This document shows, piece by piece, positions 9,898-49,375 of a stretch of 64,000 nt of DNA (position 1 is the stretch's first letter; each line of letters starts with the position of its first letter). The translations under genes were made by a program, and so were the position numbers. This DNA is from Thermoplasmatales archaeon SW_10_69_26 (GTDB taxonomy: Archaea; Thermoplasmatota; SW-10-69-26): positions 1 through 64,000 of the forward strand of contig PXUB01000030.1 of assembly GCA_003009755.1 (NCBI GenBank), given 5' to 3'. The notes under the pieces are model-generated. The model ran no database searches, had not been told where the DNA came from, and saw nothing but the letters and a program-made list of their open reading frames with translations.

Positions 9898-10401
9898 TCA
9901 GGCGAGCTCTCGCCGGTACCGCAGCCAGGCCAGCTCGCTCTCGCGCGCCCAGTCGTACGGTGCCGGTCCCTCCGCCTCGAACCCCAGCGAGGACAGCATC
10001 CCGCGCGAGGCCTCGTTCTTCGCCCACGTGACGGCGACGACCTCGCGCGCCCCGTCCTCCGCTGCCCGGTCGATCAACCGACGCCCGATCGCCTTGCCGA
10101 GCCCCTGGCCGCGCTCGAGCAGGTAAACGGCCCACCAGGCCCGGCCCTCCTCGATCGGGCCCAGACCGGCGAGACCGATCGTCTCACCCGTCCGTTGCAC
10201 GTCGAAGATGGACCAACCCTCGTCCAGCCGACGGTGCCAGAGGCCGCCGATGGTCTCCATGGCCTCCTCGGGATCGTCCCGCTCGGTCCAGCCCATGCCT
10301 CGGCGCGTCTGCGGGTCACAGAACACGGTCGAGACGAGCGCCTCGAGCTCGGTCTCACCGGCGACGGGGGCCAGCGTCAGCTCGCCTTCGTCTTCCGGCA
10401 T
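9898..10401 (-). CDS. GNAT family N-acetyltransferase
   Basis: 167 residues with the GNAT fold. Motif A, the acetyl-CoA pyrophosphate loop, is ERGQGLGKAIGRRLID, following AWWAVYLL on strand 4. The C-terminal part has the usual AKNEASRGMLSSLGFEAEG. This places it in the RimJ/RimL-like group that acetylates protein N-termini or small amines; the acceptor is unknown. Its ATG lies 25 nt inside the 3' end of the upstream gene at 10377, so the two are translationally coupled. Confidence 0.85.
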   Translation of the reverse strand: MPEDEGELTLAPVAGETELEALVSTVFCDPQTRRGMGWTERDDPEEAMETIGGLWHRRLDEGWSIFDVQRTGETIGLAGLGPIEEGRAWWAVYLLERGQGLGKAIGRRLIDRAAEDGAREVVAVTWAKNEASRGMLSSLGFEAEGPAPYDWARESELAWLRYRRELA

Positions 10402-11144
10402 TGACGGCGCACGGCCTCCGCCAGCGTCAGCGCCCCCGTCGCGACCTTGCCCGCCAGCGTGCTGGAGATCGTGACGGCGCCGTCGGACTGCTTGCGGGAG
10501 CGGCGCTGGATCTCGCGGATCTCGCCCGGCGGCACGTCGATCGGCTGCTGGGTCTCCACGAGCTCGCCGGCGGTCATCGCGATTACGCGCGCGGCGACCT
10601 TGTCGCGCTCGCCAGCGACCCGCTGCCGCGGCGGCGAGCTGCTCGTCTCGTCCACGAGCTCGACCAGGTGGCCGGCCTCGAGCACGCCGTTCACGATGCG
10701 GTCGCGCAGCGTCTGGGCTCCGTGCCCGACGCGCACGACGACCTCGGCATCCTCGTACCGATCGGCCAGGGCCTTCACCTCGTCCACGACCCTCTCGGGG
10801 TCGGCGGTGGAGCGCGTGGAGATCACGTGCCCGTCGGCGATCACGGCCAGCCCGGGCCGTTCCCCGGGATCGATCCCGATGACCAGCCGACCCACGTCCT
10901 CCAGGCCCCGCAAGAGACGGATCGTCTCCTCGACCGTCGCCTGCGGCGTCGAGTGAACCACGATCCGGTCGTGGCGGACGTCACCGCGTTCCTCTGCTGT
11001 CGTGATGACGACGTCCACCTCGTCGGGGATCGGAGACCCCGGCGAGATGCTCTCGAACGCCAGCTCCTCGGCTTGGAGGCGCTGGGAGAGGTCGTGGTAG
11101 GCGGCGAAGTCCTCCGTCATCAGCGCGATGGGGGGATGCGCCAC
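10377..11144 (-). CDS. archaeal RNase H-fold (RuvC-like) protein
   Basis: 255 residues. A segment near residue 90 (VIGIDPGERPGLAVI) has the first-strand signature of RNase H/RuvC-like nucleases, with the aspartate of IDPG as metal ligand. A second acidic strand (EDAEVVVRVGHGAQTLRDRI) and a C-terminal VAARVIAMTAGE helix follow. The N-terminal 80 residues resemble a small alpha/beta domain. It resembles conserved archaeal proteins of unknown role; nuclease activity is inferred. It is divergent from radB across a 128-bp shared promoter region and coupled to the GNAT gene downstream. Confidence 0.6.
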   Translation of the reverse strand: MAHPPIALMTEDFAAYHDLSQRLQAEELAFESISPGSPIPDEVDVVITTAEERGDVRHDRIVVHSTPQATVEETIRLLRGLEDVGRLVIGIDPGERPGLAVIADGHVISTRSTADPERVVDEVKALADRYEDAEVVVRVGHGAQTLRDRIVNGVLEAGHLVELVDETSSSPPRQRVAGERDKVAARVIAMTAGELVETQQPIDVPPGEIREIQRRSRKQSDGAVTISSTLAGKVATGALTLAEAVRRQCRKTKAS

Positions 11145-11209
11145 GGTACCACGATGGGTGCCCCCCTACCAAAAACCCCCTGGTCCAGGTCCCGTTCTGA
11201 CGTGCATCC

Positions 11210-11219
11210 GTATATAAGC
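11210..11219 (+). promoter_or_regulatory. TATA box of radB
   Basis: GTATATAAGC, the best TATA match in the window. Its centre is about 58 nt before the radB start codon, so unlike most genes here radB should have a leader of about 30 nt. That leader can fold into the hairpin at 11227-11256. Confidence 0.75.
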
Positions 11220-11226
11220 GGTCGGC

Positions 11227-11256
11227 GTGGCTGCCGGAGAGGCTTCTTCCGGCCAC
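11227..11256 (+). promoter_or_regulatory. hairpin at or near the start of the radB leader
   Basis: GTGG-CTG-CCGG pairs with CCGG-CCAC around an 11-nt loop, with a three-base bulge. The predicted transcript start near 11241 falls inside the hairpin, so it may act as DNA (an operator) rather than as RNA. Confidence 0.35.
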
Positions 11257-11272
11257 GCCGCCAGCTCCAGCC

Positions 11273-11896
11273 GTGGCCGTGATCGAAACCGGGATCGAGG
11301 CCCTCGACGAGCGCCTGGACGGGCTGCCGGCCGGCACCCTCGCGCAAGTCTACGGGCCCGCGGGTTCGGGCAAGTCCTCGCTCGCCCTAACGATCGCCCG
11401 CGAGGTGACGCCCTGCTGCCTCGTCCTCGCCGAGCGGCTGCACCGTCGGCGGGTCATCGAGGTGATCGAGCCGGTGGCCGAGGAGGTGCTCGTGGCGCGG
11501 CCCGGCGACCTGGCTGCCCAGGACGAGGCCCTGCAGAAGGCCAGCGACCTGCTCGCCGCAGGGCGCGTGCGAGCCGTCGTGCTCGACAGCCTCACCTTCC
11601 TCTACCGCTTCGCTCGCGGCTCGTCGACGGACGCGCTCGCGCGGTTGTTCGACGAGCTCGGCTGGCTGCACGAGGCGGCCCGCGAGGGCGGGGGTCTGGC
11701 CCTCGTCACCAACCAGGTCAAGGGCGGCCAGGACCCCCAGCCGATCGGCGGTCCGGGGGTGCGCCACGTCAGCGACGTCATCCTGCGCCTCGAGCAAAGC
11801 GAGGGGGCCTGGCGACGACTGGAGCTGGAGAAGCACCCGTTCGAGGCGGCCGGGTGCGCCTTCGACGTCAAGGTCACGCGGAACGGGCTACGGTGA
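11273..11896 (+). CDS. radB: DNA repair and recombination protein RadB
   Basis: A RadA paralogue found in euryarchaea, thought to help load or regulate RadA filaments. Walker A is GPAGSGKSS (about residues 29-37), Walker B is VRAVVLDSLTFLYR (about 101-114), and the TNQVK of the L2 region follows. The protein is 207 residues, lacking RadA's N-terminal DNA-binding domain, as RadB does. The GTG start has no clear ribosome site. It is divergent from the RNase H-fold gene. Confidence 0.92.
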   Translation: MAVIETGIEALDERLDGLPAGTLAQVYGPAGSGKSSLALTIAREVTPCCLVLAERLHRRRVIEVIEPVAEEVLVARPGDLAAQDEALQKASDLLAAGRVRAVVLDSLTFLYRFARGSSTDALARLFDELGWLHEAAREGGGLALVTNQVKGGQDPQPIGGPGVRHVSDVILRLEQSEGAWRRLELEKHPFEAAGCAFDVKVTRNGLR

Positions 11897-12046
11897 GGCT
11901 ACCGTGCGGTATCCTCCTCTCGCTGCCGCTCTGTGGAGGCTTTGTGTCTCGGTGGTTGGCTGCGTGTCCTCTGCCCATCTCTGTGCACTGCCGATTTCAC
12001 GTCGTGACGGGAACACTGATACGGGGCCCTGCCAACGGTTCACACG

Positions 12047-12730
12047 ATGCACGGGTTGGCGGTGTGGTTCGGAACGCTTGTCGCGGATGGCCCACTCGAT
12101 CGCGTCACCGAGGTCCTCGGGAGCCTCGCCGGGGGCAGCCCCGGAGGCACTACGCCTGCTCCCCCGACCGGGACCGAGGTCGTGCCCGAGCTATCGGCTG
12201 GGATCGCGCTGGCTTCGTTCGCGATGACGGCGGCGAAGAACGTGCTCGAACACGACACACGCCAGAAGATGTTCGAGTACATCTGGGAAGCCGGGGCCGT
12301 CCACCTCCGCCAGCTGGCCCAGACCCTCGATCTGTCGACGACCAACGCCACCTGGCATCTCGACAAGCTCGTCGACGCGGACCTGATCGGCGAGGTCAAG
12401 GTCAACGGCTACCGCATGTACTACCCGCGCGGAGCCGGTCGCCTGCTCCGCGAGCAGTGCCTCGTCGCCGGGCAGATCCAAAGCGAGAACGCCCGGGCCA
12501 TCATCGACTACGTCGCCGACAATCCCGGCAGCCACCAGCGCGCCATCGCTCGCGCGCTCGACGTCAACCACGGCACCGCCCGCTGGCATCTGTCCCGTCT
12601 CGAGGAGGCCGACCTGCTCGAGTCCCGTCAAGAGGGCCGCGTGACCGCCTACCGCCTCACGTCCCACGCCGAGCGCGTCCTCGACGAGCTTCCCCCCCGC
12701 CAGCTGCAAGAGGGCGTCCCGCTGGCCTGA
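12047..12730 (+). CDS. two-domain winged-helix regulator with hydrophobic N-terminus
   Basis: Two tandem winged-helix domains: one near residues 70-125 (LAQTLDLSTTNATWHLDKL) and one near 145-205 (IARALDVNHGTARWHLSRL). The first 65 residues are hydrophobic or proline/glycine rich with a weak membrane segment (ELSAGIALASFAMTAAK). It may be membrane-tethered like its relative at 13385-14143, which shares the layout and the 'LDVNHGT' recognition helix. Regulated genes are unknown. CTGATACG at 12016-12023 lies 27 nt before the ATG, so it is probably leaderless. Confidence 0.75.
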   Translation: MHGLAVWFGTLVADGPLDRVTEVLGSLAGGSPGGTTPAPPTGTEVVPELSAGIALASFAMTAAKNVLEHDTRQKMFEYIWEAGAVHLRQLAQTLDLSTTNATWHLDKLVDADLIGEVKVNGYRMYYPRGAGRLLREQCLVAGQIQSENARAIIDYVADNPGSHQRAIARALDVNHGTARWHLSRLEEADLLESRQEGRVTAYRLTSHAERVLDELPPRQLQEGVPLA

Positions 12731-13165
12731 TCACTCGGGGCTGCCGTCCGCCGAGAGGTCGTCGCCGATCACGTGCCGCAGCCGCGAGCCCAGGCTGTCC
12801 CCGTGCGGGTCCGCGCAAGCGTCCTTCACCCAGTCGAAGATCGGCAACCGCTGGCTGTGCGCCTCGCCCTCCAGCTCGACCGCCAGGTTCTCGTCGCCCT
12901 CGACCCACTCGCCGCCCACCGACCGGATCAGGGTCTCGCCGACGTAGCCGCCGATCGACAGGTACAGGCTCGGGGTCAGGTCGTGGTCCTGCCTGTGGAC
13001 CTCCGTGAGGAACACGTCCATGAGGGGGATCGAGCCCGGATCGAAGTCCAGGTGGAGGTCGAAATCGGCCTCGACCTTGGCCACGAACAGCGACACGACC
13101 TTCCCTAGCTGGTCCACCCGGTCCTCGACGCTCGGGAGTCCCCCGCCCTGGCCCCGTTGGCTCAT
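12731..13165 (-). CDS. hypothetical acidic protein
   Basis: 144 residues, no signal peptide or membrane segment. The sequence looks folded, with a predicted helix (VEDRVDQLGKVVSLFVAKVE), a strand-rich centre (SLYLSIGGYVGETLIRSVGG) and a motif PIFDWVKDAC near the end. I do not recognise the family. The ATG at 13165 is chosen over upstream starts because GTACTAAGG at 13188-13196 reads as a TATA box 27 nt away. It is tail-to-tail with the winged-helix gene, stops adjacent. Confidence 0.65.
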   Translation of the reverse strand: MSQRGQGGGLPSVEDRVDQLGKVVSLFVAKVEADFDLHLDFDPGSIPLMDVFLTEVHRQDHDLTPSLYLSIGGYVGETLIRSVGGEWVEGDENLAVELEGEAHSQRLPIFDWVKDACADPHGDSLGSRLRHVIGDDLSADGSPE

Positions 13166-19881: not shown

Positions 19882-20061
19882 GCCCCCGAAGCGGAACCAG
19901 GGCCTCGTAAACGTTTGCCTCCCCCGGTGGGTGAACGAACGGTCGACGGGGGAGGGGAGGAGGGCAGCGGGCGGGCGAGGTGAGCGCCGGGGCGCGGTCG
20001 TGGGAGGGGACGAGAGGTGGAGGAAACGAGGGAACAGAGGTGGCACCAACGTGAGGCTGAG

Positions 20062-20755
20062 GCGAGCATCCGACCGTGCGGTATCCCCCGGCCAAGGATG
20101 CTCGCAGTTCGGGCGGATCGGAGATCCGCCTTCCTTCGAGGGTCGGACCCGTGTGGTCGCCGCCGGGTCAGCGACCCTCGAAGTTCGCCAGAATCGTGTG
20201 CTCGGTGTCGGTTCGGGCTTCTGCGAGCATCGGACCGCACGGTGGGCACCGGTCAACGATGCTCGCAGTTCGCACGGCCTCGGCGGTGGGCGTGGTCGGC
20301 CGTGCTCTCCCGAGAGACCGCCTTCTGCGGACGCGAGGTGCCCGAGGGGCTGCGGTCTCTCGGGATTCGTACCCCCGGCTACATCCTATCCTCTGTGGAC
20401 GATGGCTGTGAGGATAGGATGTACGCGAGCATCCGACCGTGTGGTATCCCCCGGCCAAGGATGCTCGCAGTTCGCACGAACGCCCGGGCAAGTGGCACCC
20501 GGCGTTCGTGCTCTCCTCAGCTCCAGCTGTCGCTCTGTCGACCTGCTGGAGCTGAGGACGGTGGTTACCGGTGGTCGCTCGGGGTCTTCACATCAGGCCT
20601 CTGCGAGCATCGGACCGCACGGTGGGCACCGGTCAACGATGCTCGCAGTTCGTACGAACGTCGGCTCTCTCTCCACGAGGTCTGCAGAGCAGACGTTCGT
20701 ACTCCCGCTACATCCTATCCTCTGTGAGGCTGTGGCTGTGAGGATAGGATGTAGC
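20062..20755. repeat. modular stem-loop array downstream of tRNA-Arg(GCG)
   Basis: About 700 bp made almost wholly of perfect stem-loops. A 'hub' stem with arms GAGCATC/GATGCTC occurs four times (20062-20105, 20222-20267, 20425-20468, 20602-20647), each followed by AGTTCG. After the last three comes a hairpin starting CACG or TACG (for example CACGAACGCC/GGCGTTCGTG), then CTC, then a second hairpin: CCCGAGAGACCGC, CCTCAGCTCCAGC (20514-20558) or GCTACATCCTATCCTC (20707-20755). The last of these, 16 bp of perfect pairing, abuts the tRNA 3' end. An extra copy of it lies at 20378-20423. Hub copies 2 and 4 are identical over about 50 bp. Homologous units lie at 26052-26271 and 49140-49375. Confidence 0.85.
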
Positions 20756-20828
20756 GGGCGCGCCGTGATTTGAACACGGGTCCTGGCCTCCGCAAGGCCG
20801 GAGGATATCCAAACTACCCTACGCGCCC
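20756..20828 (-). tRNA. tRNA-Arg, anticodon GCG
   Basis: Folds as a 73-nt cloverleaf on the minus strand: acceptor GGGCGCG/CGCGCCC, T arm CCGTG-TTCAAAT-CACGG, and anticodon loop TTGCGGA with GCG at 34-36. It has no intron. The discriminator (20755) would be G and is the last base of the adjoining hairpin. Pair 27-43 is C-A. A TATA-like CTTCTTAGCC at 20859-20868 suggests a leader of about 8 nt. It reads CGC and CGU codons. Confidence 0.92.
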
Positions 20829-25836: not shown

Positions 25837-26051
25837 GCTCTCGGTCGGGCCGCCGTCGACACCCGACCCGGGCCGGGGCCCCAGGGGCCAGGGTCTGTCT
25901 TGCCCTCTGTTCTCATCGGCGACGGAGCGAGGGACACCGTCGCGCCGAGGCCACGCTGAGGCCGGATCGTCCACGGTCAGATGTTCGGGACGTCCACGCA
26001 GCGATCCCCGCGTGCGCTCGAGCCCGCTCGGCGAAGGAGACGTTCTTCCAT

Positions 26052-26271
26052 CGAGGGTTGGACCCAAGCGATGGGAGCCGGGTCAACAACCCTCGAAGTT
26101 CGCCCGAACCGGGCGCTAGATGTCGGTTCGGGCTCCCGCGAGCGTCAGACCGTGTGGTATCCTCCGGCCAAGGATGCTCGCAGCTCGCACGAACGCCCGG
26201 GCAAGTGGCGCCGGGCGTTCGTGCTCTCCTCAGCTCCAGCTGTCGCTCTGTCGACCTGCTGGAGCTGAGGA
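26052..26271. repeat. modular stem-loop array downstream of tRNA-Arg(CCG)
   Basis: Stem-loops in order: TCGAGGGTTG/CAACCCTCGA, then GTTCG, GCCCGAACC/GGTTCGGGC, the hub GCGAGCGTC/GATGCTCGC (26138-26181), AGCTCG, CACGAACGCCCGG/CCGGGCGTTCGTG, CTC, and CCTCAGCTCCAGC/GCTGGAGCTGAGG (26227-26271). The last ends one base before the tRNA discriminator. Bases 26138-26271 align without gaps to 20425-20558 (134 bp, about seven differences). Relative to array 1 the first stem changes TCG...CGA to TTG...CAA, keeping the pair. Confidence 0.85.
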
Positions 26272-33360: not shown

Positions 33361-34190
33361 AGCTCGGCTCGGCCAACGCCCTCCGATTGACCGCCGGCGT
33401 GGCCCTCGCCGCCACCGCGATGCTTCTCACGCATCCCGCCTCCGTCGTCGCCAGCCTCCTACTGGCGCTCGTGCTCGCCTGGCGCGTGGATCTCTTCGCC
33501 CGAGCCCGCGCGCTCGCCGTCGCCGCGGGCACGATCGGACTCGCCGTCCTCGCCTTAAACGCCGCCTTCGCCTGGCAAGGCGCGAGGGTCCTCTGGGAAG
33601 CCCCGTTCCGCATCACCTGGCTGGGCCGACCCCGGCTCACGCTCGAGGCGATGGCCTGGGGCGCCACGGCCGGCGTCCAGCTGACCACCACCGTGCTCGC
33701 CCTCGCCGCCGCCACCGTCGCCGTCCCCCCCGAGGCCCTCAACCGCGCCATGGAGCGGCTGGGCCTGCCACCCAGCCTGGCCCGCGCCGGCGGCCTGGCC
33801 CTGCGCCTGGTCCCCGACACGGCTCAGGATGCCCGCTCCATGCGCGAGGCCCTGCGGACCCGCGGCGTCGACACGTCCACGATCCGCGGCGCCACGCAGA
33901 CCCTCGTCCCGCTGACCGCCCGCTCGCTCGACCGCGCCGCCGTCGCCGAGGAGGCCCTGCTCGTGCGCGGCTACGACGCCGACGACCGCCGCACCGGCTG
34001 GCCGCCGGCCGCCTACCTCGCCCTCGCCGCCGCCACCGTCGCCGGCCTCGTCGCCTTCCTCGGCCCGGGGCGGCCGAGCTTCTACCCCACCGTGAGCCTC
34101 CCGCTCGATCCCGCCAGCCTCGCCCTCGTCGGCCTCGCGCTGGCGATCCCCGTGTTCCTCGTCGGGAGGGTGCCCCGATGCTCGAACTAG
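33357..34190 (+). CDS. ecfT: ECF transporter transmembrane (T) subunit
   Basis: 277 residues with about six membrane segments. The coupling helices carry the family's alanine-arginine signatures: GLPPSLARAGGLALRLVPD and AVAEEALLVRGYD, corresponding to the Ala-Arg-Gly motifs that dock on the ATPases. It overlaps the upstream gene by 4 nt and the ATPase gene by 13 nt. It forms the scaffold between the S component and the two ATPase domains. Confidence 0.85.
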   Translation: MKLGSANALRLTAGVALAATAMLLTHPASVVASLLLALVLAWRVDLFARARALAVAAGTIGLAVLALNAAFAWQGARVLWEAPFRITWLGRPRLTLEAMAWGATAGVQLTTTVLALAAATVAVPPEALNRAMERLGLPPSLARAGGLALRLVPDTAQDARSMREALRTRGVDTSTIRGATQTLVPLTARSLDRAAVAEEALLVRGYDADDRRTGWPPAAYLALAAATVAGLVAFLGPGRPSFYPTVSLPLDPASLALVGLALAIPVFLVGRVPRCSN

Positions 34191-49037: not shown

Positions 49038-49328
49038 TCCTCTCTCGCGTTGATTCCTCAGGGACTCCCATCGCCAGGCTCGGCTGAGGGGCCGCTGGCG
49101 GTGTCGCGCTGCATCGGAATCCCTCCGAGGGAGCGTCACGTGCGGGTGGCGTGAGCGGACGGCCGGCCGCAGCCACCGCCGAGGGCGTGCGAATCGAGAG
49201 CATCCGTAGCCGACGCGACCGTGCGGCTCGATGCTCTCGAGTGGCCAGATCTGCGATCTGGTCGAATCTCAGGGCCGACGGCGGAAATCGCCCGTCGGTC
49301 CTGAAGCCACCCGCATCCTCTCTCGCGT
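49028..49328. repeat. duplicated tRNA-Gly 3' ends (possible attachment sites)
   Basis: The last 10 bases of tRNA-Gly plus 13 bases of flank (49028-49050) recur exactly at 49306-49328. The 14 bases TCACGCCACCCGCA (49024-49037) also occur inverted at 49140-49153 (TGCGGGTGGCGTGA). Such copies are what integrating elements leave when they use a tRNA 3' end as attachment site. No integrase gene is present between them; the spacer is 255 bp. Confidence 0.7.
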
Positions 49329-49375
49329 CGAGTCCTCGGTTCGCACGGCCTTCGGCCGTGCTCTCGTGAGGGGGG
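49140..49375. repeat. third stem-loop array, downstream of tRNA-Gly
   Basis: Contains the hub CGAGAGCATC/GATGCTCTCG (49195-49239) with the same GACCGTGCGG loop core as at 20062. After AGT come GGCCAGATC-TGC-GATCTGGTC and CCGACGG/CCGTCGG, then GGTTCG and CACGGCC-TTC-GGCCGTG followed by CTC (49346-49365). The last matches the linker and hairpin order of array 1. So all three tRNA genes in the window are followed by the same kind of array. Confidence 0.7.

Follow-up and report, generated by a model that had tools for sequence, protein, structure and literature searches.

Chains of hairpin cassettes at tRNA and protein gene ends of an archaeon appear to be miniature DNA elements of a new type that enter gene ends and leave the gene unbroken

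Behind the tRNA-Arg(GCG) gene of Thermoplasmatales archaeon SW_10_69_26, we examined a chain of hairpin cassettes. To all appearance these are miniature DNA elements of a new type, which enter gene ends and leave the gene unbroken. The chain lies within a stretch of 64,000 nucleotides, which is called the window here. With a probability of roughly 0.6, we believe that the array is a stack of small non-coding integrative cassettes that restore the gene end and are mobilised in trans by a recombinase. We show that the arrays have a common position, orientation and grammar, that their stems covary, that gene ends are copied in direct and inverted orientation, that the nearest relative has no arrays, and that attachment points are held in common with tyrosine-integrase islands. 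An earlier note, made from the letters of the window, had proposed a cassette-like element, and this idea proved largely right.

Anatomy of the arrays in the window

The hairpin array is real and spans positions 20062-20758, about 700 nt. Since tRNA-Arg(GCG) is encoded on the minus strand, the array is the 3' flank of this tRNA. The hub-linker-hairpin grammar read by the earlier note was recovered, with four GAGCATC/GATGCTC hubs and the linkers AGTTCG and CTC, which read CGAACT and GAG on the sense strand. Over about 50 nt, the hub at 20221 matches the one at 20601 without a difference; over 64 nt, their identity is 95%. A fifth hub-type hairpin has a different stem (CGAGGGTC). The hairpins downstream of the hubs have perfect stems of 11-15 bp, and the hairpin adjoining the tRNA has 19 perfect pairs, with its arm starting in and taking in the last ~4 nt of the tRNA. 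Coordinates of all features are collected in Table 1.

Table 1. Hairpin features and tRNA of the array behind tRNA-Arg(GCG), and the other arrays in the window
Feature	Positions	Strand	Remarks
tRNA-Arg(GCG)	20755..20828	-	ARAGORN gives 20754-20828; 19-bp inverted repeat including CCCG
T hairpin 1, gene-end hairpin, 19 bp, loop 17	20708..20758	-	
B hairpin between linkers GAG and CGAAC	20652..20702	-	
Hub hairpin and CGAAC linker; 11 bp, 2-nt bulge, 5 bp	20600..20655 (hub 20601-20648)	-	CM R1, 78.5 bits
T hairpin; unit also found behind tRNA-Arg(CCG)	20514..20558	-	
B hairpin	20474..20511	-	
Hub hairpin and linker	20422..20477 (hub 20424-20469)	-	CM R1, 77 bits
T hairpin, near-copy of T hairpin 1 (20708..20758)	20380..20423	-	
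X-type T hairpin, 14 bp, conserved ~30-nt loop	20308..20365	-	
Y-type B hairpin, loop GACCACGCCCACCGCCGA	20272..20305	-	
Hub hairpin and linker	20220..20275 (hub 20221-20268)	-	CM R1, 80.2 bits
Hub-type hairpin, different covarying stem (CGAGGGTC)	20133..20190 (hairpin 20134-20183)	-	CM R1, 67.9 bits
B-type triloop hairpin GGCGGATC-TCC-GATCCGCC	20112..20130	-	
Hub hairpin and linker, distal end of the array	20059..20114 (hub 20062-20105)	-	CM R1, 73 bits
Second array, behind tRNA-Arg(CCG); order T, B, hub, B, hub	26048..26271	-	
Third array, behind tRNA-Gly(GCC)	49041..49327	+	
Hub hairpin of the third array	49187..49241	+	CM R1, 47 bits
Lone B hairpin, linkers GAG and CGAAC; faces the third array from the opposite strand	49343..49361	-	

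The array is not a CRISPR, as the earlier note had already said: in place of regular identical repeats with unique spacers, the hubs are spaced 161, 202 and 178 nt apart and other hairpins stand between them. No terminator-like site (a hairpin followed by a T run) was found within 20059-20758, in agreement with the remark that the hairpins lack the U-run of terminators. Rfam gave no match of the array above a family cut-off; only tRNA, SRP RNA and RNase P RNA reached theirs.

Read in the direction of the tRNA, T hairpins alternate with B hairpins (T-GA-B-GAA-T and so on), where the T hairpins are the long stems and include the hub. The short linker GA(G) precedes each B hairpin and CGAA(Y) comes after it. 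The hub itself is built of an 11-bp stem, a 2-nt bulge (CT or TT), a stem of 5-6 bp and a 12-nt loop ending in ACCRY. Across the array loci and the tRNA 3' flanks, a parse made blind to the linkers returned 107 pairs of hairpins abutting with linkers of at most 5 nt, versus 0-2 in shuffled sequence, and GA was present in 80 of these 107 linkers.

We then considered pairing in a 49-row alignment of hubs. Standard pairs filled 96.5% of the pair cells, and 15 of the 16 pairs had changed on both sides; this level of pairing was matched by 0 of 500 shuffles, with slides equally far off, although the alignment was fitted to the model and its pairing statistics therefore lean towards structure. Stem variants can be seen by eye (GAGCATC, CAGCATC, GAGGGTC, GACCATC and GGGGTCG). 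Across unlinked loci the stems covary, while the loops and linkers stay conserved. Non-Watson-Crick pairs are few, and about half of them are G-U.

In the third array, the 3' end of tRNA-Gly(GCC) recurs as an inverted copy at 49141-49154 and as a direct copy at 49306-49327. The lone B hairpin that faces this array has both linkers and is possibly the remnant array of a convergent gene.

Hosts and distribution

A covariance-model search of the genome and its relatives had been suggested in the earlier note, with hits expected at tRNA 3' ends. Searching with the hub model, we obtained about 40 copies at about 26 sites in the 2.8-Mb genome. At 25 of 25 clear sites the array stood directly 3' of a gene in sense orientation (P = 3e-8), a count that omits four weak, unclear matches (C17:33522, C43:68373, C43:29099 and C9:32738). 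Five of the hub sites belong to tRNAs and one to the SRP RNA; the remainder, about 20, are protein genes. By Pfam, the latter include Spt5, FttA, TFB, a class II aminoacyl-tRNA synthetase, ribosomal S7 and S2, FBPase, COX3, Cdc6, Cdc48, MCM, GMP synthase, transketolase, aldehyde dehydrogenase and others. An IS1595-family transposase gene (L045:2690-3735) also has an array, a Y hairpin and a hub, directly behind its stop codon.

The claim that units are gained at tRNA 3' ends held for the tRNAs themselves. At least 24 of the 42 tRNA genes have a cassette-type 3' flank, and several (C32, C14, C3) have units in tandem, with a copy of the tRNA 3' end closing every unit; tRNAs are, however, not the sole hosts. 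In all, there are about 45 distinct targets in the genome. Hub-less arrays with Y-type loops were also seen (L095, C45:29950-30350; L099, C4:10040-10180), and because such arrays were surveyed within the fetched regions, the number of protein hosts given here is a minimum. Two matches of a Y-loop pattern (C28:21703 and C33:13538) look like coding sequence.

The census covers one metagenome-like assembly with gaps in some arrays. Runs of N fall inside three arrays. Several contigs end (C3:1, C6:331 and the ends of C46 and C47) within or beside an array or a tRNA flank that bears one, which suggests that the arrays broke the assembly.

Outside this genome, the hub covariance model found no match above background in 60 relatives, and a looser search of the six nearest gave a best E value of 0.06, which we took as background. 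The nearest relative, a 75% complete genome of the same family compared with the single genome of the species itself, has an FttA orthologue (80% identical protein) with no array behind it. A DNA-pattern scan of GTDB contigs returned 4 matches in unrelated bacteria, one of which alone exceeded 15 bits by the model (19.6 bits); these were taken as chance. Viral contigs (searched with three patterns), phages and plasmids gave no match.

Gene-end copies and integrase islands

The 5' arm of the first hairpin is often the gene end itself, either the stop codon or the tRNA 3' end, and a matching inverted copy lies downstream. For Spt5, FBPase, Cdc6, Cdc48, MCM and aldehyde dehydrogenase, this arm spans the stop codon with 14-15 bp. 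At the stop codon, 7 of 19 array genes had a perfect inverted repeat of 10 bp or more; among the control genes (n = 174), one reached 11 bp and the others no more than 8 bp. Three tRNA-Gly genes have first-hairpin loops that are homologous where they can be compared (CCC and TCC), and the returning arm fits its own tRNA in each (TGCGGGTGGCGTG, TGCGGGTGCCGGG and TGCGGCCGCCGGG). This implies that the stem follows the host gene.

Copies of a tRNA's own 3' end, direct and/or inverted, were found downstream of 21 of the 42 tRNAs here versus 0 of 30 in the same-family genome (P = 8e-7). A direct copy of at least 11 nt was found at 15 of the 41 tRNAs with enough flank. These direct copies mostly begin in the T-loop and reach the discriminator or run past it; a B hairpin and GAA directly precede them. 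At many tRNAs, the 3' flank has a sense-antisense-sense order.

In seven protein genes, the last 12-51 nt of the coding sequence are copied beyond the array, reaching back to -51 in TFB, -45 in a Cys/Met enzyme, -30 in rhodanese, -28 in COX3, -17 in M48, -13 in FBPase and -12 in S7. All seven copies retain a stop codon, a different one in 4 of the 7. By a hand count with small numbers, 9 of 13 differing codons were silent or stop-for-stop (P about 0.001). Among the control genes, 1-2 of 174 had such a copy. The regenerated gene end together with a displaced copy in direct orientation is the pattern of gene-end-restoring integration, and the far copy in protein genes looks like a displaced, formerly used gene end. 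Several arrays, e.g., those of Spt5, Cdc48 and tRNA-Arg, have no gene-end copy.

The earlier note's link to site-specific recombination was strengthened by gene islands. Islands that restore a tRNA and leave a displaced fragment are a recognised signature of site-specific integration (PMC4383910), and mycobacteriophage Ms6 integrates within a tRNA T-loop (PMC1762012). Phage_integrase (PF00589) matched three times in the genome, each time adjoining a tRNA gene; the C1 match falls short of the Pfam cut-off. The island on C19 encodes integrase, primase, methylase, restriction helicase and a HerA-SIR2 pair; behind it come two hairpin units and, after them, the tRNA end that was displaced. Islands and gene-free units take turns on C1 at copies of one tRNA end, and a 97-bp gene-free unit at another tRNA (C41:4194) is homologous to a unit of this stack. 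On C2, a 4.4-kb integrase element (integrase at 33474-33929) is flanked by a 97-bp, 96% repeat that consists of a tRNA-Gly end and the first hairpins. Taken together, the alternation on C1, the tandem order on C19, the homology between C41 and C1, and the flanking repeat on C2 indicate that islands and cargo-less hairpin units share attachment points. No hairpin cassette belongs to the right ends of the C1 islands themselves, and we therefore dropped the idea that the cassettes are simply where islands end.

Two further observations concern these loci. In the C19 island (L170, C19:58800-78799), a SIR2-like gene lies beside a HerA-type helicase at 10057-13069, together with a ResIII helicase and a methylase, and this island is likely an anti-phage defence island. 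Downstream of tRNA C1:122935 (L172/L173), a 102-bp gene-free, hub-less unit has 3 repeats at copies of the same tRNA end, about 8352, 8677 and 15217 nt away.

Competing readings and known systems

In our model, a non-coding cassette of about 90-230 bp would insert at the 3' end of a gene and carry a replacement gene end, so that the gene stays whole and its former end comes to lie beyond the cassette. The replaced part would run from the T-loop to the discriminator base in tRNA genes and comprise the last few codons and the stop in protein genes. The body would be the fixed hairpin series (T-GA-B-GAA-T) closed by the conserved hub, and a stack would gain units through insertions or duplications that recur at one point and keep one orientation. 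The cassettes presumably move, with a tyrosine recombinase, either an island integrase or the host's own, acting on them in trans; crossover may occur at the GAA of the T-loop and the GAA of the linker, and the hairpins could serve as folded attachment sites or integrase arm sites. Several points weigh against this cassette reading. The units hold no gene, integrase included, and no dedicated recombinase was identified in the genome, where about 45 targets stand against three Phage_integrase genes. Tandem duplication by host recombination could also yield gene-end copies, some arrays lack such copies, and the C1 island right ends are without cassettes. Somewhat short of even odds, we place the bolder proposal of a wholly new system, in which non-coding, hairpin-coded cassettes home to the 3' ends of many conserved genes, are re-templated for each host and swap gene ends in growing structured arrays. 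A tyrosine recombinase might read such cassettes in the form of folded single strands of DNA, or they might also act as 3' RNA elements or as decoys that occupy the sites where larger islands attach.

The main competing reading, which does not exclude cassettes, is that of a 3' RNA element that duplication has spread. Here the arrays would be structured 3' UTRs or trailers, co-transcribed and active in termination or in 3'-end processing or protection, with the gene-end copies as by-products of tandem duplication. The strict sense orientation right behind stop codons and RNA 3' ends fits this, as do the housekeeping hosts (the termination factor FttA, Spt5, TFB, tRNAs and SRP RNA among them), the covarying stems with conserved loops, the share of G-U among the few non-Watson-Crick pairs, and the GA...GAA linkers, which could form sheared G-A pairs beneath each B hairpin. 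However, the nearest relative does without arrays, at FttA too, the array has no terminator-like site, and RNA function alone leaves unexplained the T-loop-to-discriminator copies, the stop-for-stop differences and the attachment points common with integrase islands; we consider it unlikely. Replication error could build and perfect gene-end hairpins through template switching that recurs at palindromes (quasipalindrome correction, inverted triplication), with neither mobility nor selection. It would account for the sense-antisense-sense order, for stems rewritten to fit the host gene end as in the three tRNA-Gly genes, and for near-perfect Watson-Crick stems, yet loops and linkers conserved across unlinked loci, fixed alternation and orientation, restriction to gene 3' ends and absence from the same-family relative make it quite improbable. 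That the arrays are an artefact of assembling a metagenome-derived genome is scarcely credible: despite the N runs and the contig ends at arrays, they occur on dozens of independent contigs with their own stem sequences joined to their own gene end, and their stems covary, whereas collapsed reads would homogenise rather than diversify them.

If the cassette reading is true, gene-free mobile cassettes cap half of an archaeon's tRNA genes as well as many of its most conserved genes and replace the ends of these genes, and integration at gene 3' ends runs on hairpin units of about 100 bp for dozens of unlike targets. To our knowledge, no single integrase has a target breadth of dozens of unlike gene ends. 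The arrays would be a natural parallel to C-terminus swapping in fungal mitochondria, the choice of gene ends by hairpins of folded DNA or RNA would become testable, and hairpin cassettes may bear on the competition between cell and islands for attachment sites.

Some known elements were rejected. An IS200/IS605-type mobiliser was dropped, as no Y1 transposase (PF01797) was found in the 95% complete genome. A group II intron or retroelement was likewise dropped, as the genome showed no reverse transcriptase (PF00078) and Rfam no intron family match; the antisense bulge geometry resembles group II domain V, yet the AGC triad is lost in the CGAGGGTC hubs. Nor is the inverted copy a tRNA primer-binding site, since it pairs with the gene and the first trailer base and not with the CCA end.

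Other systems share individual traits with the arrays. Like integron cassette arrays (attC), they have hairpin-forming sites directly 3' of genes in a single orientation and are modular; unlike them, they have no ORF cassettes, no paired R boxes that we could see and no identified IntI, with the three PF00589 matches assigned at the level of the Pfam family. By inspection, the inverse core boxes of attC, RYYYAAC...GTTRRRY, are absent, and CGAAY is one-sided with no inverted partner. We know of no gene-end restoration and no alternating linker grammar in the hairpin elements of organelles. Those elements (double-hairpin elements, and RHE in sponge mtDNA) resemble the units here as mobile short hairpins between genes (PMC2800124). 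REP/REPIN sequences with RAYT are also dispersed, short, imperfect palindromes with a one-sided conserved tag and an internal bulge, but our arrays stand in one orientation only and come with gene-end copies. REP/RAYT is defined by a GTAG (or CGTC) tag beside the palindrome (PMC3733652), and the hub tag is CGAAY.

Two further parallels replace gene ends. Mobile ORFs of fungal mitochondria replace gene C-termini (Allomyces, and Glomus atp6/atp9/cox2/nad3), and there too insertion at the gene end brings a new C-terminus, pushes the old end downstream and leaves copies whose differences are largely silent (PMC3630166). Those elements carry a homing endonuclease gene, whereas the units here are gene-free. 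In tRNA- and tmRNA-targeted islands of the Islander type, mobilised by tyrosine integrases, a carried-in copy likewise restores the target and a displaced fragment marks the far end, with an identity block from T-loop to 3' end and tandem stacking. Unlike these islands, the units here are about 100-200 bp long, gene-free and built of hairpins, and they are present at half of all tRNAs as well as at about 20 protein genes.
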